DNA of 64,000 nucleotides, from the NCBI GenBank assembly GCA_022449765.1, contig JAKUPZ010000009.1, positions 1-64,000 on the forward strand. The letters are read 5' to 3'. The DNA is from Dehalococcoidia bacterium (GTDB taxonomy: Bacteria; Chloroflexota; Dehalococcoidia; Lucifugimonadales; Australimonadaceae). A program made the position numbers and the translations under genes. Shown here in pieces: positions 30,141 to 64,000 of this stretch (position 1 is its first letter; each line of letters opens with the position of its first letter). The notes below the pieces were generated by a model. That model made no database searches. It was not told the origin of the DNA and worked only from the letters and a program-made list of their open reading frames with translations.

Positions 30141-31409
30141 ATGGTAGTGAGCAAAAAAGAAAGAATTTATACGGCTATAGACATCGGGACCACTAAAGTT
30201 GCCACTTTGGTGTGCCGCATGGGACCTGGAGGTATCGAAATACTTGCAGCAGGTCATTCCCGTTCAGAAGGCATGCAAAAAGGGCTCGTTGTAGAACCTG
30301 ACCTCCTCAAGCAAAGCGTTTCCGCGTCTGTAAAAGACGCCGAGTCTTTACTTGGAAAGCGTTTGTCTTCAGCCCATATTGGCGTAACTGGAGCTCATCT
30401 ATCTTGCGCCAACGCAGAAGGTTCATTTACCAGTAATAGTAAAATTAATCAGCCTAAGTCTTTCACTCTAGACGATGTGGACACGTTACTCAAATCTACT
30501 GCAGGGTCTAGCCTACCTGGGCAGCAACTAGTCCAGATCATTCCTAGGTCCTTCGTTGTAGATGGGGTCACAAAAGTACTAGATCCAGTAGGAATCAAGG
30601 GCTCTAGGCTCAGTGTAGAATCTCACGTTGTAGTAGGTGATTCTGAGCCACTCGAATCACTTGCAAGGGTTATACGATCCGCAGGTATTGAAATCAAATC
30701 AATGGTTTTAGAACACCTGGCTAGCGCTGAGGCAGTATTAACTGCAAACGAAAAGGAAACTGGAGTAATTTTGGTTGATATCGGGGGTGGGACTTCCGAT
30801 ATGGTCGTTTATAAAAACGGTTCAATTTGGTATACGAATGCAATCCCAGTAGCTGGTCAACATTTCACAAGCGATATTGTTACTGGGTTAGGGCTTTTAC
30901 CTTCAATTGCAGAGTCTACAAAAGTCAATTATGGATCCGCGCTAACTGAAGGTGTCGACAATGAAGCAGCCATCGAGGTTGAAACAGGCTTAGGCGGTCA
31001 TACCCGCTTCGTTTCACAACTCGCTTTAAACAGACTTATACGAGACAGAGCAACAGAGCTTGCTCGAATGATCATGCATAAACTTGCAGAAACTGGGCTT
31101 AAGCATTTACCGCCTGCAGGAATCGTGCTGACTGGAGGGAGTGCAGCACTACCTGGAATTATTGAGATTGTTGCAGAGCAAGGTAAATGCCCTGTCCGAT
31201 TAGGCGCGCCATCACACGCTTTGGGCCTGCCGGGGGAATTGGAGCATTCAAGTTTTTCGACCGCTATCGGTTTATTACTGTGGACATTAAAACACAAGCA
31301 TGCAGGTACTTTTGTACCCTCAATAAAAATGTCAGAAAGAGTGACATTGCATGCTAAGCGTCTAGTAGCTCGCTTAGAAATGGAGCAACCAACACAAATA
31401 AACGTGTAA
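30141..31409 (+). CDS. ftsA: Cell division protein FtsA
   Basis: 422 residues. Actin-fold ATPase with phosphate 1 AIDIGTTKVATLVC (about 11-24), the SHS2/1C subdomain after it, phosphate 2 VDIGGGTSDMVVY (about 212-224), and adenosine motif VLTGGSAALPG (about 330-340). FtsA tethers FtsZ to the membrane, normally through a C-terminal amphipathic helix; here the C-terminus is HAKRLVARLEM followed by a short tail, which fits. Between rsmH and ftsZ, same strand. Confidence 0.95.
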   Translation: MVVSKKERIYTAIDIGTTKVATLVCRMGPGGIEILAAGHSRSEGMQKGLVVEPDLLKQSVSASVKDAESLLGKRLSSAHIGVTGAHLSCANAEGSFTSNSKINQPKSFTLDDVDTLLKSTAGSSLPGQQLVQIIPRSFVVDGVTKVLDPVGIKGSRLSVESHVVVGDSEPLESLARVIRSAGIEIKSMVLEHLASAEAVLTANEKETGVILVDIGGGTSDMVVYKNGSIWYTNAIPVAGQHFTSDIVTGLGLLPSIAESTKVNYGSALTEGVDNEAAIEVETGLGGHTRFVSQLALNRLIRDRATELARMIMHKLAETGLKHLPPAGIVLTGGSAALPGIIEIVAEQGKCPVRLGAPSHALGLPGELEHSSFSTAIGLLLWTLKHKHAGTFVPSIKMSERVTLHAKRLVARLEMEQPTQINV

Positions 31410-31511
31410 TCAACTAAAGCAGGTTCTCAGTAGCCGGGGATCCTGCCTAGCGACGTAAGGAATACATAAAGCTTTCTTTCAATAGAAGCGTAAATAAAAG
31501 GGGTTGTACTT

Positions 31512-32600
31512 ATGGTAATGGATATATTTGATAGCTCTAGAGATCCACAAATTGGATTGGCACAAGTGAAGGTTATTGGTGTAGGCGGCGGTGGTTCAAA
31601 TGCCGTCAACCGCATGTACCGTGAACGTGTTGCAGGAGTTGAATACTTAGCGGTCAATACAGATGCACAGCATCTGCTTCGATTAGATATTCCTGTGAAA
31701 ATTAGAGTAGGAGACAAGCTGACACGCGGATTAGGTGTTGGAGGTGATCCTGAAATTGGGAAAGCTGCAGCCGAAGAATCACGTGAGGAACTCTACGAAG
31801 CAGTTCGTGGAGCAGACATGGTTTTCATTGCCTCAGGTATGGGAGGGGGTACAGGTACAGGTGCCGCACCGGTAGTTGCTGAGGTAGCAAGAGAGACCGG
31901 GGCTCTTACTATTGGAGTAGTGACCAAGCCATTCGGTTTTGAAGGCAGGAGGCGTGAAAAAAACGCCGATGACGGCTTAAGAAGACTTCAAGAACATGTT
32001 GATACATTATTAGTAATTCCCAATGACAAGCTAACTAGCATGTGTGACGAAACTGTAACAGCAGATACAGCGTTTAAAATGGCCGATGAAGTATTGCGCC
32101 AAGGCGTCCAATCAATAGCTGAGTTAGTCACTACTCCAGGAGAAATAAACCTGGATTTCGCAGATGTCAAAACTATTATGACCGGTGCAGGCCCAGCATG
32201 GATGTCGATAGGTGCAGCTCAAGGCGAAAATCGTGCTATCGAGGCTGCACAGAACGCAATTAATAGCCCAATGCTTGATGTAAGTATAGAAGGAGCGCGG
32301 GGAGTCCTATTCAACATTACTGGCGGGACAGATATGACTTTGAAAGAAGTGCAGCAAGCGGCTGATGTAATTTCAAGAGCTGTTGACCCAGAAGCAAATA
32401 TTATTTTTGGAATGGTAACGGACATGAAGATGGTTGAGGAAGTTAGAGTAACCATCATAGCTACGGGACTACCAACTATAGAATCAGCAAATTTGCCTGA
32501 CGACGGTATAGCAGAAATTCTTAGAGGTGCTTTCGGAGAGCAAGCAGAGCTTGACCTTCCTCCTTTCCTCAGAGAAAACCGTAACAGCTTGATCAGTTAG
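31512..32600 (+). CDS. ftsZ: Cell division protein FtsZ
   Basis: 362 residues. Tubulin-like GTPase: [13 protein letters not shown] (23-35), NTDAQ (49-53), the GTP signature GGGTGTG (111-117), and the T7-loop region [11 protein letters not shown]. The C-terminal linker is very short, with the conserved peptide [12 protein letters not shown] at the end, which binds FtsA. Upstream GGGGT serves as Shine-Dalgarno. 102 bp after ftsA, which could hold its own promoter. A strong terminator follows. Confidence 0.97.
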
Positions 32601-47269: not shown

Positions 47270-48010
47270 TTAGTCTAGCAACCGTCCCGCATTTGGTACC
47301 CGAACCGAACATCCTAGTAAGCGCATAATGTACCAAATACTAGCCTGTATGCCCCCTACAACAGGAATTCCTAAGTCTTTTTCCAATCTCAAGATGGCAG
47401 GCATTACTCTCCATGCGCCTCCAAATAGGTAAATTCCGTCACATTTTTTGTGTACCGAAAGTGCCTCAAGGGAAAATTCATACACTTGCTCTGGTGTAAT
47501 CCTGTCAGCATGCTCAAACGCAGATTGAATTCCATTCATTGCAAGTACATTGAATCCTGCATCTGAAAGATATTTGGTAAAAACTTGATTCTGCTCTTCA
47601 GGGGTATAAGTTATACCCACCAAATTATTTATATTTAAAAATTTGAGCGCATTTGTTAAAGCCTGTGGTGCAAATGCCACAGGGATTTCATATTTTTCAG
47701 TAAGTTCAAGAGAGAGTTCTTCAGCTTTTTGGTACCCGAGGATCATTGAAGGCGGAGCACCTTCAACATAAATAGCATCTACCTCAAGTTCTGCAAGCTC
47801 TTCAATACGCTCAAGCACCGGACTCAGGATTTTTTTAAACTCAGATGTTGAACCCTGCCTGACACCTGCATGCATCGGAATGACACCAACACCTTCCGGG
47901 AGGTAACGGATTGTTTCCTCTAACGATCCGGGTCTGTAGGTTGGCTTGATTAAGCCAACCGTTCCTTTGACCCCATACGCCCATCGTCTATCAGTATCAT
48001 TTTGATTCAT
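47270..48010 (-). CDS. Asp/Glu racemase-superfamily protein (maleate isomerase/arylmalonate decarboxylase-like) lacking both catalytic Cys
   Basis: 246 residues; the pattern GTVGLIKPTYRPG, YVEGAPPS, GITYTPEEQNQVFTKYL and YLFGGAWRVMPAIL is the maleate isomerase/AMDase branch. Catalytic Cys is expected in the first loop (YVEGAPPS, 81-88) and in the second (FGGAWR, 196-201), but both lack it; the only cysteines are C190 and C234. So either the chemistry is different, or it is a non-catalytic binder. 22 bp downstream of the SDR gene, same operon. Confidence 0.75.
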   Translation of the reverse strand: MNQNDTDRRWAYGVKGTVGLIKPTYRPGSLEETIRYLPEGVGVIPMHAGVRQGSTSEFKKILSPVLERIEELAELEVDAIYVEGAPPSMILGYQKAEELSLELTEKYEIPVAFAPQALTNALKFLNINNLVGITYTPEEQNQVFTKYLSDAGFNVLAMNGIQSAFEHADRITPEQVYEFSLEALSVHKKCDGIYLFGGAWRVMPAILRLEKDLGIPVVGGIQASIWYIMRLLGCSVRVPNAGRLLD

Positions 48011-49905: not shown

Positions 49906-52221
49906 ATGACTACCCAAGGTTATGTTGGCCAAAGCGTACTAAGAACTGAAGATGAACGTCTCCTTAGAGGAGCGGGTAGCTTCACCGCGGATATTCATTT
50001 AACTGGGCTCCTCCATCTTGTTATAGTACGAAGCCCTCACGCACACGCGAATATATTGAATATTGATGCCTCTGCAGTTTTAGCATCATCTGGTGTAGTA
50101 GGTGTGCTTACTAGCGATGATCTTCAAGAAGTAGGTTGGCTCAGTAGTATCGGTAGGCCTGGGATGGAAATTAAGCAAGGTGGAGACCATCCTATTTTGG
50201 CTAATGGCCGTGCTCTTTATGCTGGACAGCCGGTTGCAGCAGTTATAGCTAACAGCCTGGCTGAAGCTATAGATGCATCCTTAGAGTTTGACATAACCTA
50301 TGAACCTTTACCTGCGGTAAATGACCTTGAAGAGGCATTAAGCAATAAGTTCGCTCCTCTACATGAAATTATGGGCGACAATATCTGTGCTTATCAACGC
50401 ACAGGTGGCGGCAATGTAGAAGCAGCATTTGAAAGTGCTACAAAAGTCATAACAGGGAATTTCCACGTTCCTCGTATTGCTCCAATGGCTATGGAAGGCA
50501 GAGCCTGCATTTCCAGCTACGATTCGAATTCTGGAAATTTAACTTTTTATTCCTCAAATCAATCGGCCCATGACATAGAACATCATTTACACGAAATAAT
50601 TACTGTACCTGGGCATATACGGGTGTTCGCGCCAGACGTAGGAGGCGGCTTCGGTCATAAGCATCATATTTACCCAGAAGAAGTATGCGCTATTGTTTAC
50701 TCAATAAGATCGGGGCTTCCGGTTAAATGGGTAGAATCCCGTAGCGAAAACATCCATTCTTCGCACTCACGTGGATTAGAAGCTTCCTTAAGTGCAGCAG
50801 TTAATCCGAATGGGAAAATACTTGGCCTCAAAGGTCGTTTTCTTTCAGATATGGGCGCATTCTGGATCAGTGGGGCATTCACTTCACCTGATAATGCAGC
50901 TAAAAGGATAACCGGCCCATACGATATTCAAGCGTATGATGGCGAACAATTCTGCTTAATGACGAATAGGCCGCCAATGACTTCCTATCGAGGGGCGGGA
51001 CAACCAGAAGGCACTTTCTGCATGGAAAGACTGATGGATTTAATTGCAAGGGAATTAGATATTGACCCCATTGAAGTGCGGCGGGTTAATCTCATAAGCC
51101 CTAAGAGTTTTCCGTATAAAACTGTGGCAGGAATACCGTATGTCGATGGTGATTATGAACCAGTTATCGATAGAGCCATTGAAAAAAGCCAGTATCAAGA
51201 ACTTCTTAGGCAGAGGGATGAAGATAGAAAGTCAGGTAAATTAGTTGGGGTCGGAGTTGCTATTTCTACAAAAGGTTCTGGGGGGACTGGTGGCGATGCA
51301 GCTCGTTCCAGTGCAGCAAAAATCTCTATCGATCGTGATGGAGGAGTTTTGATTGCTACTGACATTTCGCCACATGGCCAAGGCAATGCAACTACTTTTG
51401 CACAAATTGCTGCAGATACTTTGGGCGTTGTAATTGAAGATATCACTGTCCAGTGGGGCGATTCCCATCTGATAGAACCATTTGGGCCCGGAGCAGGTAC
51501 TTATGCGAGTCGCGGATTGGTAATAGGAGGTCATGCAGTACATCAAACTGCAGAGCAATTACGTGAATCCCTAGTGGAAACGGGAGCAAGGGTTCTCGAA
51601 ACCAGTAGCGCTAATATCCGTATATCATCAGGGCGAATTCATTCGATTCAGGATCCCTCTCACTATCTCTCTATCGGGCAAGTTGCATGCATGATAGGTG
51701 ATGAGTTTAACGGCTGTGAACATTATTCCACTTTCACTTTACCTCCAGGAAGCTTCGCCTTTGCTATGCATGTGGCGTACGTTGAAATAGACATAGAAAC
51801 TGGGCATGTACAAGTCAAGGACTTTACTGCCGTACATGATGTTGGGAATTTAATTAATCCAATGATTGTAAATGGCCAAATACATGGTGGGATAGTCCAA
51901 GGTTTTGGAGAAGCGATGCTAGAGGGAATTTCATATGCTGAAGATGGTCGGCCTAATGAATGGTCTTTCATGGATTACTCAATGCCTTTGGCGGAAGATT
52001 TACCTAAAATGAAAATTGAAACATATGCGACCGAAGCAAGGAATGGTGCTCTAGGAGTTAGAGGCATTGGGGAAATGCCATCCGTCACTGCTCCAGTAGT
52101 GCTTGCAAATGCAGTACATGACGCACTCAGCAGCATTGGCGCTTCAATGGTTGAAATTCCTTTGTCGCAGGAAAAAGTATGGAAAGCTATTAATGCTACA
52201 AGCGGAAAAGCTGCTGATTAA
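49906..52221 (+). CDS. Molybdenum hydroxylase large subunit (xanthine dehydrogenase/CoxL family)
   Basis: 771 residues, with the molybdopterin-binding subunit layout: VGQSVLRTEDERLLRGAGSF at the start, VGGGFGHKHHIYPEE, SYRGAGQPEG (about residue 357-366), GQGNATTFAQIA, and GVRGIGEMP near the end with the catalytic Glu at about 723. The CoxL-specific AYRCSFR loop is absent, so it is not a form I CO dehydrogenase but an aldehyde oxidase/hydroxylase type. Medium (FAD) and small (2Fe-2S) subunits are not in this window, though normally adjacent. Followed by a PAC2 protein and an MFS gene. Confidence 0.88.
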   Translation: MTTQGYVGQSVLRTEDERLLRGAGSFTADIHLTGLLHLVIVRSPHAHANILNIDASAVLASSGVVGVLTSDDLQEVGWLSSIGRPGMEIKQGGDHPILANGRALYAGQPVAAVIANSLAEAIDASLEFDITYEPLPAVNDLEEALSNKFAPLHEIMGDNICAYQRTGGGNVEAAFESATKVITGNFHVPRIAPMAMEGRACISSYDSNSGNLTFYSSNQSAHDIEHHLHEIITVPGHIRVFAPDVGGGFGHKHHIYPEEVCAIVYSIRSGLPVKWVESRSENIHSSHSRGLEASLSAAVNPNGKILGLKGRFLSDMGAFWISGAFTSPDNAAKRITGPYDIQAYDGEQFCLMTNRPPMTSYRGAGQPEGTFCMERLMDLIARELDIDPIEVRRVNLISPKSFPYKTVAGIPYVDGDYEPVIDRAIEKSQYQELLRQRDEDRKSGKLVGVGVAISTKGSGGTGGDAARSSAAKISIDRDGGVLIATDISPHGQGNATTFAQIAADTLGVVIEDITVQWGDSHLIEPFGPGAGTYASRGLVIGGHAVHQTAEQLRESLVETGARVLETSSANIRISSGRIHSIQDPSHYLSIGQVACMIGDEFNGCEHYSTFTLPPGSFAFAMHVAYVEIDIETGHVQVKDFTAVHDVGNLINPMIVNGQIHGGIVQGFGEAMLEGISYAEDGRPNEWSFMDYSMPLAEDLPKMKIETYATEARNGALGVRGIGEMPSVTAPVVLANAVHDALSSIGASMVEIPLSQEKVWKAINATSGKAAD

Positions 52222-53181: not shown

Positions 53182-54477
53182 GTGAGCCCCAATAGGGTCT
53201 CATCTAACCTAAATGAACCACCACCAAATCCAAGATTTTTCTATGGATGGGTTGTAGTTGCCGTACTAGGAATAATAGGCGGGATTAGCACTTTCATCGG
53301 AGTTGGAAACTTCGGGGTATTTGTTGTCCCAATGAGTGAAGATCTTGGAGTAGGCAATAGTTATTTTGGCTGGGCACTCTCTGCAAGACTTTTCGGGTTT
53401 GCTATTTCCGGTCCATTAATAGGACGTTGCATAGACAAATATGGCACTCGGCTTCCTCTTGCTATTGGTGGTTTTTTATTTGGCGGTAGTGCGATCGCAT
53501 TCTTTTTCATAGAAGCCGGTTGGCAAATGATAGGTATAACATTATTTGCTGGCATCACTGGGTTTTGGGGAAGCAGCACACTCTATTTAACAGTCCCTAT
53601 AGCTAAATGGTTTGTTAAAAAAAGAGGTAGGGCAATGTCTCTATTCTTCCCTTGTGTCCCTTTAGGAATTGGCCTAGGCAGTCCCGCCACACAGTTGGTT
53701 ATCGACGCGTTCGGATGGAGAGGAGCTTGGCTAGTACTAGGTGTGGTTGGGGGATTAAGTATCACGATTCTTTCACTTGTTTTTGTTAGAAATGATCCTA
53801 GCAGCATAGGGTTACTGCCTGATGGTGAAGTCAAGTCCATTGGAAATGCCCAATCTGCTAATTCTTCTATTGACGAATATCCTTGGACTCTCCGGGAGGC
53901 AATGGCGACTGGTGCGTTCTGGAAAATCAGCGCTTCATACGGGCTCTTAATGGCAGCAATGGGATCGGTCGGAGTATTTTGGATTCCATTTCTTCGATCG
54001 ATAGATATAAGCCCGCATATAGCGGCATTAGCTTTCTCAACTCAAGCCTTCACGCAAGTGATCGCTGCAATACTCATCGCACCTTGGATAGACCGGATTT
54101 CGCCTCGTTATCTTGCGATGTCTGGCTTTACAAGTGTAGCTATTGCATTGGTAATAGCAGCCAATGCATCTGAGGCGTGGCATGGGTTCCTTGGAGCAAC
54201 GCTTATTGGCCTAGGAATCGGTACTGCTATGTTAATGCAAACACACATATGGCCAGTCTATTTTGGGAGAGTAAATATTGGCGCTATCAGAGGAGCTGCG
54301 ACACCAATAACGCTTGTAATGACAGCTATTGGTGCCCCAATACTAAGTATCCTTTTCGATAATTATGGATTTGCGACAGGATGGGTAGTCGCGGGGGTGG
54401 CCCTAACTGTTGGAATTGCACTATTGCTGATTTCGCCCAAGCCATTCATCTCCGTACCTGGTAAAAACAACTCTTAA
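53182..54477 (+). CDS. MFS transporter, oxalate/formate-antiporter (MCT-like) type
   Basis: 431 residues, GTG start 3 bp after the PAC2 stop. About 12 spans; RFFYGWVVVAVLGIIGG and VRNDPSSIGLLPDGE match the MFS gene at 8169, so the two are paralogues of one carrier family. Probably imports a carboxylate for the Mo enzyme upstream; this is inference. Stop shares TTAA with the convergent oxidase gene. Confidence 0.85.
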   Translation: MSPNRVSSNLNEPPPNPRFFYGWVVVAVLGIIGGISTFIGVGNFGVFVVPMSEDLGVGNSYFGWALSARLFGFAISGPLIGRCIDKYGTRLPLAIGGFLFGGSAIAFFFIEAGWQMIGITLFAGITGFWGSSTLYLTVPIAKWFVKKRGRAMSLFFPCVPLGIGLGSPATQLVIDAFGWRGAWLVLGVVGGLSITILSLVFVRNDPSSIGLLPDGEVKSIGNAQSANSSIDEYPWTLREAMATGAFWKISASYGLLMAAMGSVGVFWIPFLRSIDISPHIAALAFSTQAFTQVIAAILIAPWIDRISPRYLAMSGFTSVAIALVIAANASEAWHGFLGATLIGLGIGTAMLMQTHIWPVYFGRVNIGAIRGAATPITLVMTAIGAPILSILFDNYGFATGWVVAGVALTVGIALLLISPKPFISVPGKNNS

Positions 54478-55607
54478 TGGAATCGAGATGGTGAAAAAAT
54501 AGAAATATCGTTTGAAGATTCTCGATATTCTGCTAAATCAGCCATAACTTCGCCCACGGTACTGCAAAATTTAAAACCATGTCCTGAAAAACCTGCAGCA
54601 TACGAAACTTGTGGGTATTCTTGGTGCAATCCGATAACAAAATTATGATCAGGTGAATTTGTGAACATGCAAACAACCATTCTTAGCATCTTTCCTTCAG
54701 CTGCAGGAAAATGATTACGTGTAAATGACCGAAGCATCTCTTCATCCTCTTGCCGAAAGTCACGGTCAAGATTATCAGGATCTGAAATTTCTCCAACATG
54801 GTGGAATTTCCCTACTTTGTAGCCAGGAACACCAAAAGCTGGAAACCCATAATATTCTTCCTCATCTGAAGTAATTATAAATACAGGAAAGTTAGCAGGG
54901 CTAAACATTTCAATATTTGATGGCTCAAACCATGCAACAACCTGCCGTTCAGGAACCGCAATCGATTCAAGTTCTGGAATAAGCTTTCCTGCCCAGGCTC
55001 CCGCCGTAAATACCAAGGCATCAGCATAGTATTCTGCTTGATCAGTAATAATTTTAACTCCCGAATCGACAGGCTCCCAATGTATTACTCGCTCTCCTTC
55101 ATGTATCTGAGCGCCCCATTGAGCAGCGAGCTTAACATGGCCCTCTATACATTTCTCAGGAACCAAAAACCCACCGTCTTCTTGAAAAACTGCCATCATA
55201 TCTTCTGGTAATTGGTATCCTGGGAATTTTTTATGCAGCTCCGAAGAGGTAAAAATTTGATGTGGAATATTTTGATCAATACAGGCACCTAAGGTATTTT
55301 GAAAACCACTAGACTCTGGTAATCCTGCGTGAACAGAACCTGTAATATGCAGTATTTTTTCTCCCATTTCTGCTTGCAAAGTTCCCCAAAGTTCATAAGC
55401 TCTTTTGCCAAACGCTACATACTCGGGACCTTCATGGTATGCAAGACGAATAATGCGAGATAAACCATGAGACGAGCCAAGTTCATGTGCAATCTGAAAT
55501 TGTTCGATCCCGAGAACTTTTTTCCCACGTTTTGCTAATTGGTAGACAGTAGCACTACCCATACCGCCAACGCCAACAACTATTACGTCATATTTTTGAA
55601 TAGCCAT
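54474..55607 (-). CDS. FAD-dependent amine oxidase, N-methyltryptophan/sarcosine oxidase (MTOX) type
   Basis: 377 residues from the ATG at 55607; the TTG at 55634 is less likely. Dinucleotide fold VVGVGGMGSATVYQLAKRG at the start, GSSHGLSRIIRLAYHEG, and near the end VVCMFTNSPDHNF, where the Cys matches the covalent FAD-binding Cys of monomeric sarcosine oxidase, followed by AAGFSGHGFKFCSTVGEVMADL split by the FAD. It oxidises N-methyl amino acids to formaldehyde, amine acid and H2O2. Divergent from the tctC gene. Confidence 0.88.
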   Translation of the reverse strand: MAIQKYDVIVVGVGGMGSATVYQLAKRGKKVLGIEQFQIAHELGSSHGLSRIIRLAYHEGPEYVAFGKRAYELWGTLQAEMGEKILHITGSVHAGLPESSGFQNTLGACIDQNIPHQIFTSSELHKKFPGYQLPEDMMAVFQEDGGFLVPEKCIEGHVKLAAQWGAQIHEGERVIHWEPVDSGVKIITDQAEYYADALVFTAGAWAGKLIPELESIAVPERQVVAWFEPSNIEMFSPANFPVFIITSDEEEYYGFPAFGVPGYKVGKFHHVGEISDPDNLDRDFRQEDEEMLRSFTRNHFPAAEGKMLRMVVCMFTNSPDHNFVIGLHQEYPQVSYAAGFSGHGFKFCSTVGEVMADLAEYRESSNDISIFSPSRFH

Positions 55608-55735
55608 AATCTTTTTCACCTCTAAATATATCAAAACTGTTGCCGTTGATTAACAGTGGATGCTAACATCCGGCCCTCCGAGGCATGCATATATAATGCC
55701 ACGGAACTTTACGATTGATTTTGGGAGGACCGCTC

Positions 55736-56944
55736 ATGTCTTGGGCAAAACAAATTTCTGGGCTCCTAGTTTTGAGTGCAGCATTAATGGTTGCAGTAGT
55801 TGCGTGTGGAGGAGATGATCCCACACCGACTCCTAAACCTGCTGCAGCTGCTCCGGCCGCATCGGCCCCAACTGCAACACCTGTACCTGCAAAGCCTACA
55901 GCCACACCAAAGCCGGCTGCAAAAGAAGAAGCTCCGGCACCAACTGCAACTCCGGTACCTGCTTTTGATGCAGAAAGCTACTTCAAAGGTAAGACCGTGA
56001 AAATTATTGTTGGTTTTTCTCCTGGTGGAGGATATGACACCTATGCAAGATTGATTGCAGCGACCATATCTGATTACATTCCAGGTAAGCCTCGAGTAAT
56101 AGTACAGAACCTACCTGGTGGTGGTGGCCTCAGAGGCCTGCAGACAGCAATGGCTGCCAAGCCTGATGGGCTTACAGCGGTGACCATGGCAAATAGGTGG
56201 CCTGCTCGGGAAGCTGCAGGAGAGGACGTCAAAGGTTTTGACCCTTACACTGCCGAGTATATTGGTACTCCTAGCTACACAAACAAATGGACTGCGCTTT
56301 GTGTAAGGTCTGATGTTGCAACGAACTGGGAAGAAGTAGTCGCCCTTGGTAGGAATATCACAACAGGTACTTCTGCCCCTGGTGGTGACATGATCGGTGG
56401 TGAGTTTGTTTCTTCAATCGGCCTACCCGTTAAAGTAATTTACGGATATGAAGGTACTTCAGAAGTGCTTGCCGCAGTAGATCGAAAAGAACTAGACGCT
56501 ACCACAAGGTGCCCTGGTGAATTCTGGCTAAGCCTTTACCCTGAATGGGAAGAGCAGAAGATGCTAAAGCCTCTATTCTACTGGAAAGATCCTATTCCTG
56601 AAGCTGAATTAACCAGAATGGGTGTTACGGGTTCAGTGCCTCATGTGTTTGACGTAACAAAGGCCAATGCAGAGCAGCAAGCAGCTTTCAATCTAGCTGA
56701 AAAGTTAGAATCTATGACAAGGATGTACACTCTGCCTCCTAAAACACCTAAGGACATTGTCGAAACATGGCGTTCAGCATTCAAATCTACTTTGACTGAT
56801 GCGAAGTTCGTCGAGCGCGCCTCGCAGCTTGAACGTGAAATTAATTACGGTGACCCTGAAGATTTCGTTGCAGCCGTACAGGCAGGAAAGGGATTGAGTA
56901 CTGAGGGACGAGAATTGTTCAAAGCCCTCTATGGATTAAAGTAA
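55736..56944 (+). CDS. tctC: TctC-type tripartite tricarboxylate transporter binding lipoprotein
   Basis: 402 residues from the ATG at 55736 (GGGAGG upstream). Lipobox VVAC with Cys at about residue 24, then a Pro/Ala/Thr-rich linker (PTPTPKPAAAAPAASAP) and the Bug/TctC domain: KTVKIIVGFSPGGGYDTYARLIA and QNLPGGGGLRGLQTAMAAKPDG, the Bug signatures for carboxylate binding. It is lipid-anchored instead of free-periplasmic, as expected in a monoderm. A terminator follows, and then tctA and tctB. Confidence 0.92.
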   Translation: MSWAKQISGLLVLSAALMVAVVACGGDDPTPTPKPAAAAPAASAPTATPVPAKPTATPKPAAKEEAPAPTATPVPAFDAESYFKGKTVKIIVGFSPGGGYDTYARLIAATISDYIPGKPRVIVQNLPGGGGLRGLQTAMAAKPDGLTAVTMANRWPAREAAGEDVKGFDPYTAEYIGTPSYTNKWTALCVRSDVATNWEEVVALGRNITTGTSAPGGDMIGGEFVSSIGLPVKVIYGYEGTSEVLAAVDRKELDATTRCPGEFWLSLYPEWEEQKMLKPLFYWKDPIPEAELTRMGVTGSVPHVFDVTKANAEQQAAFNLAEKLESMTRMYTLPPKTPKDIVETWRSAFKSTLTDAKFVERASQLEREINYGDPEDFVAAVQAGKGLSTEGRELFKALYGLK

Positions 56945-56968
56945 ATCCTTCTCTACTCAAATTAGAGT

Positions 56969-57008
56969 GAAACAAGGGCAGCATTTGCTGCCCTTGTTTC
57001 TTTAATGT
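56969..57008 (+). terminator. Terminator/attenuator between tctC and tctA
   Basis: A perfect 14-bp stem (56969-56982 with 56987-57000), loop ATTT, followed by TTTAATGTTTTTT. It would let tctC be expressed more than the membrane genes downstream. Confidence 0.8.
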
Positions 57009-57085
57009 TTTTTAGGTGTTGACTTGGAGTCGATACGCACGTAGTTTACGCATGTTTTAAAGTTCTCTTATCAATCGAGGTTTAA

Positions 57086-58618
57086 GTGGACGGAGATTTT
57101 CTTAAAGCTGCCCTTGACGGCGCGGATCAATTATTTTCTGTTGGACCGATGATTGCATTTGCAATCATGATTCCAATTGCTCTCATTTCCGGGCTGATGC
57201 CTGGAGGCGGTCTCCCATTCCTAGTTGTGGTTTTATCATTCGCAACTGAACTAGACCCATTTATCGCAATGCCGATGGTAATTGGCTATATGGCTGCAAA
57301 TGACTTAACGGAACCAATCCCATCTATCCTTCTAGGCATACCAGGTGCACGATCATCGCAAGCAACAATTCTTGATGGATACCCTCTTGCCAGGCAAGGC
57401 CATGCAGGCCGTGCATTAGGTGCCGCTTACACATCCTCGTTAATTGGAGGAATTGTAGGTGGACTAGCATTGTTCATGGTATTGCCATTTGCCCGAGAGC
57501 TACTGAAGTTATTCGGTTCTCCAGAATTTTTCTTACTCTCGTTTCTGGGGATAGCATCTGTGGGTATAGTCAGTGCTGGAGCTATGACGAAGGGGATGCT
57601 CACCGCATCATTAGGCCTATTAATTGGCATGATAGGTTTTGTGGGAGTAGCTGCTACTGAGCGTGCTACTTTTGGCATTCAATACCTTTACGATGGGATT
57701 CATATCGTTCCTGTAGTCGTAGGGTTATTTGCAATTCCTGAAATCGCAGATCTTATCATTTCCGACAAACCGGTTGCTAAAGATCGCTTATCTGAGATGC
57801 TGAAAGAAGGAAATAAAGATGTCTATTTAGGTATGCGCGATGCGCTTCGTCATAAATTCCTTATTGCTCGCTCTGCTCTCATTGGTGTTTTTATCGGTGC
57901 AATGCCTGGATTAGGACCTACCCCAGCACATTGGATTGCTTACGCTCAAGCGAGACAGACAGAGAAAGGGGCTCGCGAAACATTTGGAACTGGGGATATA
58001 AGAGGTGTTATAGCTCCAGAGGCTTCGAATAACGCTACAGACGGTGGAGTGCTAATGCCTACGGTACTTTTTGGTATACCAGGTAGTGCTCCTATGGCCA
58101 TAGTACTAGGATTTTTAATTCTCGTTGGTATTACACCAGGGCCCAATATGGTAAATGCCGATCTTGATCTAACCATTTCTCTCGTCTATGCAATTATTCT
58201 AGCGAATATCATTGTTGTCCCCATAGTTTTAAGATTCTCTGCATTACTCACAAAAGTTGCTGCAGTGCCTCCAAGAGTATTAGCTCCATTAGTAATTGGT
58301 ATTGTCACAATCTCTGCTTTTCAAGCCACTTATAGCTATCCAGACCTCATTGTGGTTGGAGCCTTCGCGTTGTTGGGCATGTTCATGAAAGCATTTGCAT
58401 GGCCACGCCCGCCAATTCTTATAGCAATTGTTCTTGCAGGTCCTTTGGAAAAATACCTAAGCATTTCAATCCAATCACGTGGAGCATCTTTGCTCTGGCA
58501 GCCAGCATTCATAGGAATAATTATTTTTGTTGTAATTGCAGTTTGGTTCGCACTTAGAGTTCAAAAAGGCACGCAAGCGTACTCCGAGACTGTTGAAAAA
58601 GAAGGCAATGATGAGTAG
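57086..58618 (+). CDS. tctA: TctA-type tripartite tricarboxylate transporter large membrane subunit
   Basis: 510 residues, GTG start with GAGG upstream. About 12 spans in two repeats; the twin motif is GLMPGGGLPFLVVVLSF near the start and GAMPGLGPTPAHWIAY in the middle, plus ATILDGYPLARQGHAGRALGAAY. It is the cation-coupled permease partner of TctC. The last 8 bp overlap the tctB start. Substrates of the family include citrate, tartrate, phthalate and other carboxylates; here the decarboxylase genes downstream point to an aromatic or unsaturated acid. Confidence 0.93.
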   Translation: MDGDFLKAALDGADQLFSVGPMIAFAIMIPIALISGLMPGGGLPFLVVVLSFATELDPFIAMPMVIGYMAANDLTEPIPSILLGIPGARSSQATILDGYPLARQGHAGRALGAAYTSSLIGGIVGGLALFMVLPFARELLKLFGSPEFFLLSFLGIASVGIVSAGAMTKGMLTASLGLLIGMIGFVGVAATERATFGIQYLYDGIHIVPVVVGLFAIPEIADLIISDKPVAKDRLSEMLKEGNKDVYLGMRDALRHKFLIARSALIGVFIGAMPGLGPTPAHWIAYAQARQTEKGARETFGTGDIRGVIAPEASNNATDGGVLMPTVLFGIPGSAPMAIVLGFLILVGITPGPNMVNADLDLTISLVYAIILANIIVVPIVLRFSALLTKVAAVPPRVLAPLVIGIVTISAFQATYSYPDLIVVGAFALLGMFMKAFAWPRPPILIAIVLAGPLEKYLSISIQSRGASLLWQPAFIGIIIFVVIAVWFALRVQKGTQAYSETVEKEGNDE

Positions 58619-59180
58619 CGATAAGGATAAGACTAATCAAGAAAGAAATATTTCATGGACATCCATTGAAATAATCGGTGAGCTTATTCTGCTTGGCTTT
58701 ATGATGGTCCTCATTATTGCTTACTTAATTGAACTTCCTGAGATTAAATGGGCTGGAAGATACCTTCCGCTTCTCGCAATAACAATGGGATTACCATTCT
58801 GGTTCCTGAGGGTAAGAACTGTACTTGCTAGAAAGTCAGCATTACAGCAAGGAATGGTAATGGATCTTGGATTCAAGCTTGGTGAAGACCCCAGCGGGGA
58901 GAAGCAGCGAGCAATACTATACATAGGGTCAATACTCGGACTTTTCATCTTAGTTTGGGTAATAGGGTTTCATATCGGGCTTCCTGCATGGGTGGTTGGT
59001 TATTTAGTTGTTTATGCCAAGATGAAATGGCGCTACGCATTAATAGCAGGAATTGGGTTTGAAGCATTTATCATCGCTATCCTTGATTTAACAATAGATA
59101 TTGGATGGCCTGAGCCTCTCATCTTCAAATTGATTAATATTGCATACCCTTTCAACGATATGTTCAGCAGAGCTTTTTAG
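58611..59180 (+). CDS. tctB: TctB-type tripartite tricarboxylate transporter small membrane subunit
   Basis: 189 residues from the ATG at 58611 with AAGG upstream, overlapping tctA by 8 bp; a second ATG at 58608 is equivalent. Four to five hydrophobic segments: ELILLGFMMVLIIAYLIEL, LPLLAITMGLPFWFL, then two in the C-terminal half. Sequence conservation in TctB is low, so the assignment is mostly from position, size and topology. Confidence 0.82.
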   Translation: MSSDKDKTNQERNISWTSIEIIGELILLGFMMVLIIAYLIELPEIKWAGRYLPLLAITMGLPFWFLRVRTVLARKSALQQGMVMDLGFKLGEDPSGEKQRAILYIGSILGLFILVWVIGFHIGLPAWVVGYLVVYAKMKWRYALIAGIGFEAFIIAILDLTIDIGWPEPLIFKLINIAYPFNDMFSRAF

Positions 59181-59248
59181 GAAAGGGAAATAATCGGATC
59201 TAGCAATTCAATTTGAATGGTGATTTGATTTCAAAGGAGAAAAGTAGC

Positions 59249-60715
59249 ATGGCTGATCGAAAACCCGTTCCATATAACGATTTACGTGGCTATCTGAAAT
59301 TGCTTGAAGACAAGGGCATGCTTGTCCGAATTTCTGCTGAAGTTAACCTCGATGGAGAGCTCGGAGCAATAGCATATCGAGATCTTGTAAGAGATGGGCC
59401 TGCGCTTTGGTTCGACAACATAAAGGATTACCCTGGAATGCCTTTGGTCGCAAATATTATGTATAGAGAAGATCAACTGGCACTTGCGCTCAATGGTGAA
59501 GCAGATTGGGCTAATCTCCGGGACATCATCCATGAAGGAATGCAAGACAGGACTGCGAGCAACATCGTAGAAACTGGTCCTGTAAAAGAAGTCAAAATCA
59601 TGGGGGAAGATGTTGACCTCGACATGCTACCCACACCTCGTTGGCATGAGGAGGATGGCGGACGCTATATTGGCACTACGGCGGGTTTTGTCACAAAAGA
59701 TCCATTAAATGGAAACCTTAATATGGGTCAATATCGCTCAATGATCATAGACAAAAATACTACTACCGTAGAAATCATGGGGGATTGGGAAGTAGGTGCA
59801 AAACCACCCCAAGCCTCCAACTATGGTGGCGTAGGTGACCGCAATGGAGTTGTTCATATACTAGAAAATGAGGAAAAGGGGCTGCCCACCCCATGCGCAA
59901 TAGTACTGGGTATGGACCCCCTATTGACTCTTTCATGTGGAACTGCAGTTCCGCATGATGAAAATGGGCACGGAGAATATGAAGCTGCTGGTAGCTGGGC
60001 TGGTAGACCAGTTGATCTTGTCAAATGTGAAACTAGTGACCTGATGGTACCGGCTAACGCAGAAATAGTGCTAGAAGGAGAAATTGTCCCTTACGAGCGA
60101 GTTAACGATGGTCCGCATGGAGAGTCTACAGGCTTTTATAACCAGCATCCTTCTACATTTATGGTCAGGATTAAAGCAATCACTCATCGGAAGAATCCAA
60201 TCAGCTTCGGCCTTATCTGTGGTCGTATTGAAGACTACCCCCGACCACTAATGCGCTCAAATACCTTACTTGATGTACTTATAGCAAAATCTGGATTGAC
60301 CAATATTAAGGAAGTTTTTTTTCCTGATGCAGGAAGATCAGGTTTTCTCATCATACGTGCACAAATCACAAACCCTGAGCAACCAAAGCAAATTATTGAT
60401 GCTGCATATGAGCATATGCGGTATCGTTGGGTTATAGTCGTCGATGAGGACTGTAACGTAAGAGATTGGAATGATGTACTTTGGCGTATTGTCTCGTCAG
60501 TAGTCCCAGATCGAGACATATATCGAGGGAAGGAATATGAATATCGGACACCTCATCCGGGTTCAATTGAATTTGTCCCGCCAACGTACGGGATGGCGTT
60601 TGACGCAACCTTTGAATTCAAAGAATATGAGCACCCTCGTCCAGGCGTAGCTCAGCCAAGTATGAAGATGATGGAGCATGTTGCTTCAAGATGGAAAGAT
60701 TTCGGGCTTAGTTAA
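59249..60715 (+). CDS. UbiD family decarboxylase (prFMN-dependent), copy 1
   Basis: 488 residues from the ATG at 59249, preceded by AAAGGAG; a TTG at 59213 is less likely. DLRGYLKLLEDKGMLVRI at the start, NMGQYRSMIID (the prFMN/metal-site Arg), VPANAEIVLEGEIVPYERVNDGPHGESTGFY and GRIEDYPRPLMRS are UbiD signatures. UbiD enzymes reversibly decarboxylate unsaturated or aromatic acids with prenylated FMN. Directly followed by a second ubiD, then ubiX, the cofactor maker. Substrate unknown. Confidence 0.92.
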   Translation: MADRKPVPYNDLRGYLKLLEDKGMLVRISAEVNLDGELGAIAYRDLVRDGPALWFDNIKDYPGMPLVANIMYREDQLALALNGEADWANLRDIIHEGMQDRTASNIVETGPVKEVKIMGEDVDLDMLPTPRWHEEDGGRYIGTTAGFVTKDPLNGNLNMGQYRSMIIDKNTTTVEIMGDWEVGAKPPQASNYGGVGDRNGVVHILENEEKGLPTPCAIVLGMDPLLTLSCGTAVPHDENGHGEYEAAGSWAGRPVDLVKCETSDLMVPANAEIVLEGEIVPYERVNDGPHGESTGFYNQHPSTFMVRIKAITHRKNPISFGLICGRIEDYPRPLMRSNTLLDVLIAKSGLTNIKEVFFPDAGRSGFLIIRAQITNPEQPKQIIDAAYEHMRYRWVIVVDEDCNVRDWNDVLWRIVSSVVPDRDIYRGKEYEYRTPHPGSIEFVPPTYGMAFDATFEFKEYEHPRPGVAQPSMKMMEHVASRWKDFGLS

Positions 60716-60736
60716 TTTTTTAAGTGGAGGGCAGAG

Positions 60737-62212
60737 GTGACAACCTCAGAAAACAGAAAAGCAGTATCGTACAAAAGTATGCGCGAATTTATGATGATTC
60801 TTGAAGAACGAGGTCTCTTAAAGCGTATTAATGCAGAGGTAGATTTAGATTTTGAGGTTGGAGCTATCAGCTACCGATCTCTGACTCGCACGGGCCCTGG
60901 TTTACTTTTTGAAAATATAAAGGAAAACCCTGACAAGCAGCTTGTCACAAACATCATGTATTCACTTGATCAGCTTGCTGTAGCATTTAACGGCCCGAAA
61001 GATTGGGTTAAGTTGCACGATATAGTCAAGGAAGGCATGGCAGACCGTCTGCCTAGCGTCAAGGTAGATGATGGTCCTGTTAAAGAAGTGAAGATTTTTG
61101 GCGAAGACGTAGACCTCGCCGAAATCCCCACTCCGTTGTGGCACGAGTTAGATGCCGGGCGCTATATTGCCACCACTGCAGGCGTCATAACAGTGGACCC
61201 CAAAACAGGTGCACACAATATGGGGCAGTATCGATCAATGATTATTGATCGCAACCACACCACAGTAAAAATCCAAGGAGATTTTGCGGTTGGCGCCAAA
61301 CCTCCAACAGGTTCTACTTACGGAGGAGTCGGAGATCGCAATAGCGCTGTGCATATCTTAGAAAACGAAGCTTTAGGTAAAAACACTCCATGTGCAATCG
61401 CACTAGGCATGGATCCATTGCTTGTCCTAGCCGCTGGAACTGCCGTACCAGAAAATGACCAAGGTTTGGCAGAATATGATGCCGCAGGTGCATGGGCTGG
61501 TAGGCCTGTTGAACTTGTCAAATGCGACACGATTGATGTCTGGGTTCCCGCTGAGTCCGAGTATATTCTTGAAGGAGAAATACTTGCAGGCGAGCGACAT
61601 TTTGATGGTCCTCATGGTGAATCCTCGGGCTTTTATAATAAAAATTATGCAGCATTTGTATTTCGAGTAAATGCTATAACACATAGGAAAAGCCCAATCA
61701 ATTTCGGACTCATCTGCGGTCGTATTGAGGATTACCCGAGACCATTAATGCGATCAGGTTCTATTCTTCAAACACTAGTAAGCAAGTCGGGATTGACTAA
61801 TATTCTGGAGGTTCATTTCCCCGATGCTGGTGCTGGTGGCGTCATTGTTATACGTGCAAAAATAGAGAAAGAGGGTCAAGCCCGACAGATTCTGGACGCA
61901 GCATATCAGCACCTCCGGTATCGATGGGTAGTGTTGGTGGACGAAGACTGTGACGTCCGTGATTGGAACGACATATGGTGGCGCATCGTTTCTTTCTGTG
62001 AGCCAGGGGATAATACTTTCATTGGGCCAGAGCACCCAAGGCACCTTGGACGACCAGGGGAAATGGATTTCGTACCACCTCCTCATGGTATGGGCATTGA
62101 TGCCACACGGGAGCACAAGAAAACAGAATACCCAGTGCCACCTCCGTCTAAACCAACTATGGAAATATTAGACAAGGTCGGCGAGCGTTGGGATGAACTA
62201 GCTCTATCCTAG
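60737..62212 (+). CDS. UbiD family decarboxylase (prFMN-dependent), copy 2
   Basis: 491 residues, GTG start with GGAGGG upstream. It has the same landmarks as copy 1: KSMREFMMILEERGLLKRI, NMGQYRSMIIDRN, VPAESEYILEGEILAGERHFDGPHGESSGFY and GRIEDYPRPLMRSG. The two copies are collinear and highly similar, and start 21 bp apart, so they are a tandem duplication with divergence. They may form a heteromer or use different acids. Confidence 0.92.
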   Translation: MTTSENRKAVSYKSMREFMMILEERGLLKRINAEVDLDFEVGAISYRSLTRTGPGLLFENIKENPDKQLVTNIMYSLDQLAVAFNGPKDWVKLHDIVKEGMADRLPSVKVDDGPVKEVKIFGEDVDLAEIPTPLWHELDAGRYIATTAGVITVDPKTGAHNMGQYRSMIIDRNHTTVKIQGDFAVGAKPPTGSTYGGVGDRNSAVHILENEALGKNTPCAIALGMDPLLVLAAGTAVPENDQGLAEYDAAGAWAGRPVELVKCDTIDVWVPAESEYILEGEILAGERHFDGPHGESSGFYNKNYAAFVFRVNAITHRKSPINFGLICGRIEDYPRPLMRSGSILQTLVSKSGLTNILEVHFPDAGAGGVIVIRAKIEKEGQARQILDAAYQHLRYRWVVLVDEDCDVRDWNDIWWRIVSFCEPGDNTFIGPEHPRHLGRPGEMDFVPPPHGMGIDATREHKKTEYPVPPPSKPTMEILDKVGERWDELALS

Positions 62213-62226
62213 GAATTTAGCCATTT

Positions 62227-62252
62227 AGAAGGGGCATTAACTTGCCCCTTCT
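62227..62252 (+). promoter_or_regulatory. Hairpin in the ubiD-ubiX junction
   Basis: AGAAGGGGCA (62227-62236) pairs with TGCCCCTTCT (62243-62252) around a 6-nt loop, 15 bp after the ubiD stop; the ubiX Shine-Dalgarno GGAG follows at 62254. It may terminate, protect the RNA 3' end or tune ubiX translation. Confidence 0.5.
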
Positions 62253-62265
62253 TGGAGACCAGCTT

Positions 62266-62847
62266 TTGAGAAAAATAATTGTAGGTATTAGCGGTTCCTC
62301 TGCTCCTCATTATGGGATCTATACACTTAAGGCTCTACAAGCAATTGATGACGTAGAGACACACTTAATTCTGTCTGAAGGAGCCCACCTTTCCATTAAA
62401 TATGAGGCCCCTGAATGGTCCATAAGTGATATTGAAGGCCTTGCAGATATCGTTCATAGCCCCAAAAACATGGCAGCCAGTGTCTCAAGCGGATCATTTA
62501 AAACGGATGGAATGGTTGTTGTTCCATGTTCTATGAAAACCCTTGCAGGGATTGCTAATTCTTACAACAATGATCTCATTACAAGAGCAGCTGATGTATG
62601 CCTTAAAGAACGTCGCAAACTCGTTGTTGTAGCAAGAGAAACACCTCTACATAGAGGGCATTTAACTAACATGCTAGCGGTCTCCGACATGGGCGGCATC
62701 ATACTTCCTCCAATACCAGGGTTTTACTCAGGGCCACAAACCATAGATGACATCATCAATCACACCGTAGGGAAAATTCTAGATCTGCTTGATATCGAAA
62801 ATAACCAGTTCAAAAGATGGGAAGGAAAAGATCCTTCATCTGATTGA
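62266..62847 (+). CDS. ubiX: Flavin prenyltransferase UbiX
   Basis: 193 residues from the TTG at 62266 (MRKIIVGISG...), preceded by GGAG at good spacing. An upstream TTG at 62242 is inside a hairpin. GISGSSAPHYG is the flavin-binding loop of UbiX (usually GASG), then the VVPCSMKTLAGIANSYNNDLITRAADVCLKERRKLVVVARETPLH core, split by sheets, and the DMGGIILPPIPGFY end. It prenylates FMN with dimethylallyl phosphate to make the prFMN used by the two UbiD proteins coded upstream. Confidence 0.93.
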   Translation: MRKIIVGISGSSAPHYGIYTLKALQAIDDVETHLILSEGAHLSIKYEAPEWSISDIEGLADIVHSPKNMAASVSSGSFKTDGMVVVPCSMKTLAGIANSYNNDLITRAADVCLKERRKLVVVARETPLHRGHLTNMLAVSDMGGIILPPIPGFYSGPQTIDDIINHTVGKILDLLDIENNQFKRWEGKDPSSD

Positions 62848-62857
62848 AGGCTGAGCA

Positions 62858-63310
62858 ATGTCTGAAGACTTAGGAAATATCATCCCAGATGACTTATATA
62901 ACGCTTTGCTCCATGAAAATGTAACAATTTCTCCTGGTAAAGCAATATTGATCACTACTTCTGACTCCAGCGGCTGGCCCCACCCAGCATTGCTTTCATT
63001 TAGAGAAGTAGGGGTTAAAGATCGAAATACTATTCGCATAAAGACTTATTCAGGGTCGAATACTACTCAAAACCTCAAGGATAATGGGGTGATAACTTTA
63101 GTTTTTATCGATCCCACAATGACTTATTATGTAAAAGGCCTTGCTACGATACTCCAATCTCAGGCAGAAGATGCGCTTGACATGCTTACCGCCATGGATA
63201 TATCTATCCGACAAGTTTTGCGCGATTTTACTTCTGAGGATGAAGAAGGCGCATTCATCACTTCGGGAATAATGTTCCACAATCCGTGGGATTCTGAAAG
63301 ACGCATATAA
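62858..63310 (+). CDS. Pyridoxamine-phosphate-oxidase-like FMN-binding split-barrel protein
   Basis: 150 residues. KAILITTSDSSGWPHPALLSFREVGVKDRNTIRIKTYSGSNTTQNLKDNG has the alternating pattern of the PPOX/FMN-binding split barrel; VKGLATI follows. 10 bp after ubiX and 13 bp before the enolase-superfamily gene. It might supply reduced flavin or accept electrons for this pathway, but a specific function cannot be stated. Confidence 0.72.
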   Translation: MSEDLGNIIPDDLYNALLHENVTISPGKAILITTSDSSGWPHPALLSFREVGVKDRNTIRIKTYSGSNTTQNLKDNGVITLVFIDPTMTYYVKGLATILQSQAEDALDMLTAMDISIRQVLRDFTSEDEEGAFITSGIMFHNPWDSERRI

Positions 63311-63323
63311 CTAATGGGGAAAT

Positions 63324-64000
63324 AATGAAAGTCACAAAAATTTCGGCCACAACGGCAGTTATTCCACTGCGTAATGTAACTTCCTTTTCAACTCGTACGG
63401 TAAGCGAGCGTCATTACACTATCGTAAAAATTCTTACTGATGAAGGAATAGAAGGTATTGGTTTTTGCTATTGCGGAAATGCAGCCGGATCAATTGTTAC
63501 CAGTGCAGTGCGCAATCTATTAGCAAAACATGTAATTGGACAGGACCCTCATAACACAGAATTCATTTGGGACGCGATGTACAAAGACGCATTGTTAATG
63601 GGTCGTCGCGGTGCAGTTGTCAGGGCAATTAGTGCAATTGACAACGCACTTTGGGATATCAATGCAAAACATGCAAAGCTTCCTCTGTATCAATACTTAG
63701 GTGGTTTTTACCAAGATGTTGTACCTGCTTATGCAAGCGGGGGTTATTACCTTGATGGGAAAACCCCGGAGCATCTTGCAGAGGAGTGTCTCAGTTATGT
63801 CGATATGGGATTCAAAGCGGTAAAAATTAAAGTAGGTCGCGTGAGTGCAATCGAGGATGCAGCACGGATAGAAGCAGTACGTAATGCAATTGGCGATGAG
63901 GTTGAATTATTTACTGATGCTAACAATGCTTGGAATGATGCTACTTCGGCGATTCGCGCAATCAGGCTTTGGGAAGATTACGATCTTGGATGGGTTGAAG
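63324..64000 (+). CDS. Mandelate racemase/muconate lactonizing enzyme family protein (partial)
   Basis: The first 225 residues are visible; the gene continues beyond the window. GGGGA precedes the ATG. The N-terminal capping domain (TEEG-like DEGIEGIGFCYCG) is followed by GRRGAVVRAISAIDNALWDINAKHAKLPLYQYLGG split by loops, then the catalytic K167-I-K169 (AVKIKVG) and metal-ligand D198-A-N200 (LFTDANNAW). These place it in the enolase superfamily, MR/MLE branch, which removes the alpha proton of a carboxylate (racemisation, dehydration or cycloisomerisation). Last visible gene of the tct-ubiD operon. Confidence 0.92.

Follow-up and report, generated by a model that had tools for sequence, protein, structure and literature searches.

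We describe a gene cluster at the end of a 64,000-nt stretch of DNA (the window) from a SAR202 (Chloroflexota) metagenome-assembled genome (MAG). The cluster probably constitutes a self-contained decarboxylation module that uses the rare cofactor prenylated flavin mononucleotide (prFMN), has its own importer and acts on a carboxylic acid. It encodes, in order, TctC, TctA, a TctB-like protein, UbiD1, UbiD2, UbiX, a split-barrel "PPOX" protein and a mandelate-racemase (MR)-type enolase. All eight are open frames on the + strand, and the original prediction, which had read them as a TctCAB-UbiD-UbiD-UbiX-PPOX-enolase set running in one direction, proved right in its frames and coordinates and, largely, in the families that it named. 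TctA and TctB overlap by 8 bp, the widest gap (TctC/TctA) is 141 bp, and the remaining gaps are 10-68 bp. The features are listed below; the last one lies beyond the window.

55736-56944 (+): TctC-like solute-binding lipoprotein (Pfam score just under cut-off, motif, synteny); an alternative TTG start at 55715 is possible
56969-57000 (no strand): 14-bp hairpin in the TctC/TctA gap, from a consensus scan only; a possible attenuator or processing site
57086-58618 (+): TctA, large membrane subunit of a tripartite tricarboxylate transporter (TTT) (Pfam TctA, synteny)
58611-59180 (+): TctB-like small membrane subunit (position and synteny), overlapping TctA
59249-60715 (+): UbiD1, prFMN-dependent decarboxylase (Pfam UbiD, UbiD_N and UbiD_C; residue alignment; tree clade D1)
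60737-62212 (+): UbiD2, paralogous prFMN-dependent decarboxylase (Pfam; residue alignment; tree clade D2)
62242-62847 (+): UbiX flavin prenyltransferase (NF004685, TIGR00421); its orthologues begin a few residues further in
62858-63310 (+): PhdC-like split-barrel protein, probable prFMN maturase (PDB sequence match, Foldseek, E50, adjacency to UbiX)
63325-64000, continuing to contig position 64443 (+): enolase-superfamily enzyme of the mandelate racemase subgroup, 372 residues (Pfam MR_MLE_N, MR_MLE_C)
contig 64466-65620 (+): Amidohydro_2 gene, in the same direction as the operon

The closest relatives of the cluster are found in SAR202/Dehalococcoidia MAGs. The order TctC-TctA-TctB-UbiD1-UbiD2-UbiX-PPOX is kept at four related loci (L005-L008) and, as far as the contigs extend, at two others (L011 and L012). 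Since this order recurs in relatives, it is not due to chance, and the conserved arrangement on which the original prediction had staked its operon is indeed present. Among 250 genomes of the order, the search detected these UbiDs in a single family only (the window's genus, two genomes; g179, six; g180, one), and more distant members, about 43-50% identical, are found in other Chloroflexota. A plasmid collection gave only homologues below about 34% identity among the matches listed.

In the transport part, TctA scores 356 bits against the Pfam TctA model (cut-off 28.9), which identifies it as the large subunit of a TTT system, and is 76-95% identical among the syntenic relatives. TctC scores 24.3 bits, below the cut-off of 27; within its VGFSPGGGYD...R stretch, the VGFSPGGGYD motif is invariant across 7 relatives, and the gene opens the operon in relatives. 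TctB has no match in the Pfam and NCBIfam scans and is named from position and synteny, its orthologues (53-79% identical) occupying the same place in relatives. For both proteins, position and synteny fit the TTT assignment. The genome (G000) contains seven TctA genes, two of them on contig C11 and the others on C6, C9, C15, C18 and C1.

UbiD1 and UbiD2 are the only two UbiDs of the genome and are 60% identical to each other, with Pfam UbiD scores of 182 and 177 bits, respectively (cut-off 23.3). The UbiD catalytic triad is written E(D)-R-E (PMC8988006). By alignment, this triad corresponds to R163, D287 and E292 in UbiD1 and to R166, D290 and E295 in UbiD2, and the Asn/His/Glu metal site to N158, H203 and E243 and to N161, H206 and E246, so that both proteins have the domains, triad and metal site of the UbiD (de)carboxylase family. 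In a pairwise alignment the metal-site His seemed to be missing from UbiD1, but this was an artefact; relatives that lack the insertion put this His at H203. The AlphaFold model of UbiD1 has a mean predicted local distance difference test (pLDDT) score of 59, and its Foldseek list confirms the UbiD fold only. Both proteins score far under the cut-off of every function-level model, including VdcC (NF041204; 205 and 180 bits against 650), and only UbiD1 passes, narrowly, the broad TIGR00148 subfamily model.

In a tree of 48 UbiD sequences, which has some long reference branches and does not include the Fdc1 and PA0254 branch, both copies belong to a Chloroflexota clade (100/100) that excludes E. 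coli UbiD, VdcC/ShdC, AroY, HmfF and PhdA. In particular, PhdA clusters with Streptomyces sequences and with other UbiDs of Chloroflexota (100/100), whereas UbiD1 and UbiD2 belong to a separate clade of 28 rows (100/100). This clade is marked by W-R-[IV]-x-S where others have W-A-x-x-T-R, and by EDYPR at the pocket stretch that reads EEH/REH in AroY/HmfF-type proteins. The UbiD1 orthologues and the UbiD2 orthologues each form one clade with full or near-full support; the tree therefore places the duplication before the split of g1, g179 and g180, with both copies retained. Fifty-six positions are fixed differently between the two copies, among them L411/W414, S417/F420 and N338/G341. A third UbiD-like gene (447 residues) adjoins UbiX-PPOX at L010 (7588-8928, -; the same as L062 11355-12179) and was excluded from the tree. 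It diverges after EGPW, lacks the second triad Glu and the normal C-terminal half, and is either a decayed gene or an assembly error.

The two UbiDs may alternatively form one hetero-oligomeric (de)carboxylase, in the manner of the alpha and beta subunits of phenylphosphate carboxylase, rather than act as independent enzymes. The genes are in tandem with a gap of 21 bp, and wherever either copy occurs the other occurs too. We nevertheless consider this arrangement rather unlikely. Neither protein has the look of a dead subunit, since triad and metal site are complete in both; the orthologues of one relative (G307) are on separate contigs, and each adjoins a TctC gene or remnant; and the phenylphosphate carboxylase models give only 158 bits (cut-off 564.6) and 125 bits (cut-off 468.95).

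The cofactor genes directly follow the two UbiDs. UbiX exceeds the curated family cut-offs (NF004685, 253.6 bits against 188; TIGR00421, 225.6 against 108.9) and is the sole UbiX of the genome, where the other PF02441 gene is a 417-residue frame that is CoaBC-like by size. The next gene, which scores 35.8 bits against Pfam PNPOx_N (cut-off 28.1), had been described in the original prediction as a flavin-fold protein; the description can now be sharpened to a probable PhdC-type prFMN maturase, as judged from sequence and modelled structure. PhdC is reported to convert an inactive prFMN radical into the active iminium form; the base proposed for this reaction is Glu136, and Glu47 lies next to it (PMC13040415). 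PhdC is the best PDB sequence match of the protein studied here (profile search, E=2e-4) and occupies all of ranks 1-9 in a Foldseek search with the AlphaFold model (mean pLDDT 75). Moreover, PhdC Glu47 corresponds to E50, which is invariant in 8 orthologues. The loop that precedes the C-terminal helix contains two further invariant residues, E129 and W144; there is no ExW motif, and the alignment is unsure in this part. YclD also lacks the ExW Trp (PMC13040415).

The genomic distribution points in the same direction. Eleven genomes of the family carry the PhdC-like gene, and in each it immediately follows UbiX. In 15 of the family's 16 genomes it is either present alongside UbiD or missing with it (one-sided Fisher p 0.003, not corrected for relatedness); only a MAG of 76% completeness departs from this pattern.

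An aromatic acid is the likeliest substrate, although only as a best guess drawn from the rest of the genome. Within the 1.6 Mb of the genome, the LigXa_C Rieske-oxygenase domain is matched 36 times at ~32 places, mostly above the Pfam cut-off, and 14 control genomes have none. Five genes encode LigB extradiol ring-cleavage dioxygenases, several of them adjoining a LigXa gene, and two TctA genes (on C11 and C1) lie 1.2-1.4 kb from a LigXa gene, which suggests that several TTT systems of this genome take up aromatic acids. A second cluster in g179 (L054 8284-17504, and L055), in which an amidohydrolase and a UbiD are divergent from TctA-TctB-TctC and are followed by a LigXa-type Rieske oxygenase and then a PhdA-clade UbiD, also enters into this guess. 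One of the LigXa_C places lies within the window itself (455-1810, -). Genomes of the same type, from SAR202 group VII, contain many aromatic-ring oxygenases and ring decarboxylases (PMC6123686, PMC6946804); for example, MPMJ01, a group VII sponge symbiont, has 62 ring-hydroxylating oxygenases (PMC6946804).

Several observations weigh against a transporter-linked module with its own maturase and an aromatic substrate. The TctC match is weak, and the operon contains no ring-modifying enzyme. In G306 (L009), the UbiD pair has no adjoining transporter and is neighboured by CoA-transferase, acyl-CoA-dehydrogenase-like and binding-protein genes, with UbiX-PPOX elsewhere, so the TTT link is not universal. 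The equivalent of PhdC Glu136 cannot be placed with certainty. Finally, VIA-align ranks PhdC level with two uncharacterised split-barrel (PPOX) proteins, 2htd and 2q9k (Z 10-11). This last result bears on a different assignment, in which the "PPOX" protein gives UbiX the reduced FMN it requires and is an ordinary F420/FMN split-barrel protein or flavin reductase; the fold is common to many such proteins. We hold this assignment to be rather unlikely: PhdC outranks all other PPOX structures both by sequence and by Foldseek, its Glu47 is retained, and the pairing with UbiX is strict.

A further alternative is stepwise decarboxylation, in which an imported (hetero)aromatic dicarboxylic acid loses one carboxyl group and then the other through the action of the two UbiDs. 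TTT systems do import dicarboxylates such as terephthalate (PMC8556258), and the paralogues differ at the fixed positions mentioned above. However, the sole hint from the pocket was lost: one pairwise alignment had matched HmfF Arg304 with an Arg in the GRIEDYPRPLMRS loop, but the multiple alignment showed a two-column shift, and the candidate was dropped. We regard stepwise removal as doubtful, and we would give little weight to a previously undescribed route of successive twin-UbiD action on a dicarboxylate, with its own maturase lineage in Chloroflexota. A role in ubiquinone or menaquinone biosynthesis, for which UbiD and UbiX are best known, is very improbable, because both proteins score far below the ubiquinone UbiD (NF008175; UbiD1 170 and UbiD2 172 bits against 788) and menaquinone decarboxylase (TIGR03701; 171 and 179 against 495.9) cut-offs and lie in a clade separate from E. 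coli UbiD, as the original prediction required, while the futalosine-pathway VitK2_biosynth gene was looked for in the genome and not found, and UbiD is absent altogether from a related genome (G308) that is 97% complete.

In the module that we favour, TctCAB would import a carboxylic acid, in all likelihood an aromatic or heteroaromatic one, and UbiX would produce reduced prFMN. The PhdC-like protein would then oxidise the reduced cofactor, or a dead-end radical, to the active iminium form, with which UbiD1 and UbiD2 would decarboxylate either the one acid or two related ones. The product might then be taken over by the Rieske oxygenases and extradiol dioxygenases that other parts of the genome encode. 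The original prediction had read the operon as a complete pathway. This is supported only in part: for import, prFMN synthesis and decarboxylation, which the gene families and the conserved order bring together in one operon, but not for any step after decarboxylation, and the enolase is lineage-limited.

The enolase matches Pfam MR_MLE_N and MR_MLE_C above the cut-offs, and no NCBIfam model reaches its equivalog or function-level cut-off. It contains the motifs KAVKIKVG (164), DANNAW (198), WVEEP (223), ATGEI (248), IIQPDAG (270) and IAPHW (298), which we take to supply the KxK, D/N, E and E ligands and the Asp-His dyad characteristic of the mandelate racemase subgroup; the protein has the full set. 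Only three MR-type enolases are encoded in the genome. Besides the window genome, the enolase and the amidohydrolase lie inside the operon only at L005, from the same genus. L007, L008, L011 and L012 have a different gene after PPOX, presumably for a DUF3179 protein. In a genome of another genus (G310, locus L100), a 73% identical enolase follows UbiX-PPOX. Since the enolase stands beside UbiX-PPOX there and a different gene takes its place elsewhere, the link is real but patchy, and the enolase and amidohydrolase are limited to particular lineages.

Gene order past the window, which the original prediction had proposed to examine, consists of the end of the enolase, the amidohydrolase and then an FtsZ-like gene on the opposite strand (L004 11629-13820, -; contig 65628-67819). 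The FtsZ-like gene has an N-terminal extension and a small partner gene, and is kept at this place in relatives; a separate FtsA-FtsZ pair is present at 30141-32600 of the window. Just upstream of the operon, and likewise kept there in relatives, is a flavin adenine dinucleotide (FAD) oxidase (54474-55604, -) that passes the N-methyl-L-tryptophan oxidase cut-off (457.6 bits against 257). Further upstream in the window, the large subunit of a CoxL-like molybdopterin dehydrogenase stands alone, with a PAC2 protein after it (49906-52221, +); a scan of neighbouring genes gave neither a medium nor a small subunit. The window also contains an arylmalonate-decarboxylase-like gene of the Asp/Glu racemase fold (47270-48010, -) that scores under the arylmalonate decarboxylase cut-off.

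Among known systems, the operon shares the trio of UbiD decarboxylase, UbiX and small split-barrel maturase with PhdA-PhdB-PhdC, the phenazine-1-carboxylate decarboxylase operon of Mycolicibacterium fortuitum (PMC13040415; PDB 7pda, 9srg, 9nk0). Of the PDB entries, PhdA (7pda) matches UbiD1 best by sequence (E=1e-52); PhdC and the PhdC-like protein share about 20-24% identity. Unlike PhdABC, the operon described here has two UbiDs, which fall in a separate clade, and a TTT importer. The VdcBCD/YclD systems of Bacillaceae and Sedimentibacter (PMC8379154) likewise combine UbiX and UbiD in an operon for aromatic acids, and YclD is a distant PhdC-like activator (PMC13040415); in contrast, no VdcD-like gene is found among the operon genes listed here, and the UbiDs lie off the VdcC/ShdC branch. 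With E. coli UbiD of ubiquinone synthesis they have the fold, triad and prFMN use in common but not the clade. The texts checked on SAR202 group VII aromatic degradation (PMC6123686, PMC6946804) make no mention of UbiD, TTT, a maturase or the operon, and we found no description of the operon in the papers searched on SAR202 and UbiD. The parts are thus ordinary, and their combination is apparently undescribed.

A PhdC-type maturase in Chloroflexota looks like a new claim. So far, maturases of this type have been reported from distant bacteria only, and the PhdC relatives detectable by BLAST were all from Actinomycetota (PMC13040415). If the maturase assignment is true, PhdC-type prFMN activation extends beyond Actinomycetota, which would bear on the inactivity of many UbiDs expressed alone. 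In addition, because the binding protein, the two decarboxylases and the full cofactor supply are encoded in one piece, the system could be expressed and screened for its real substrate.

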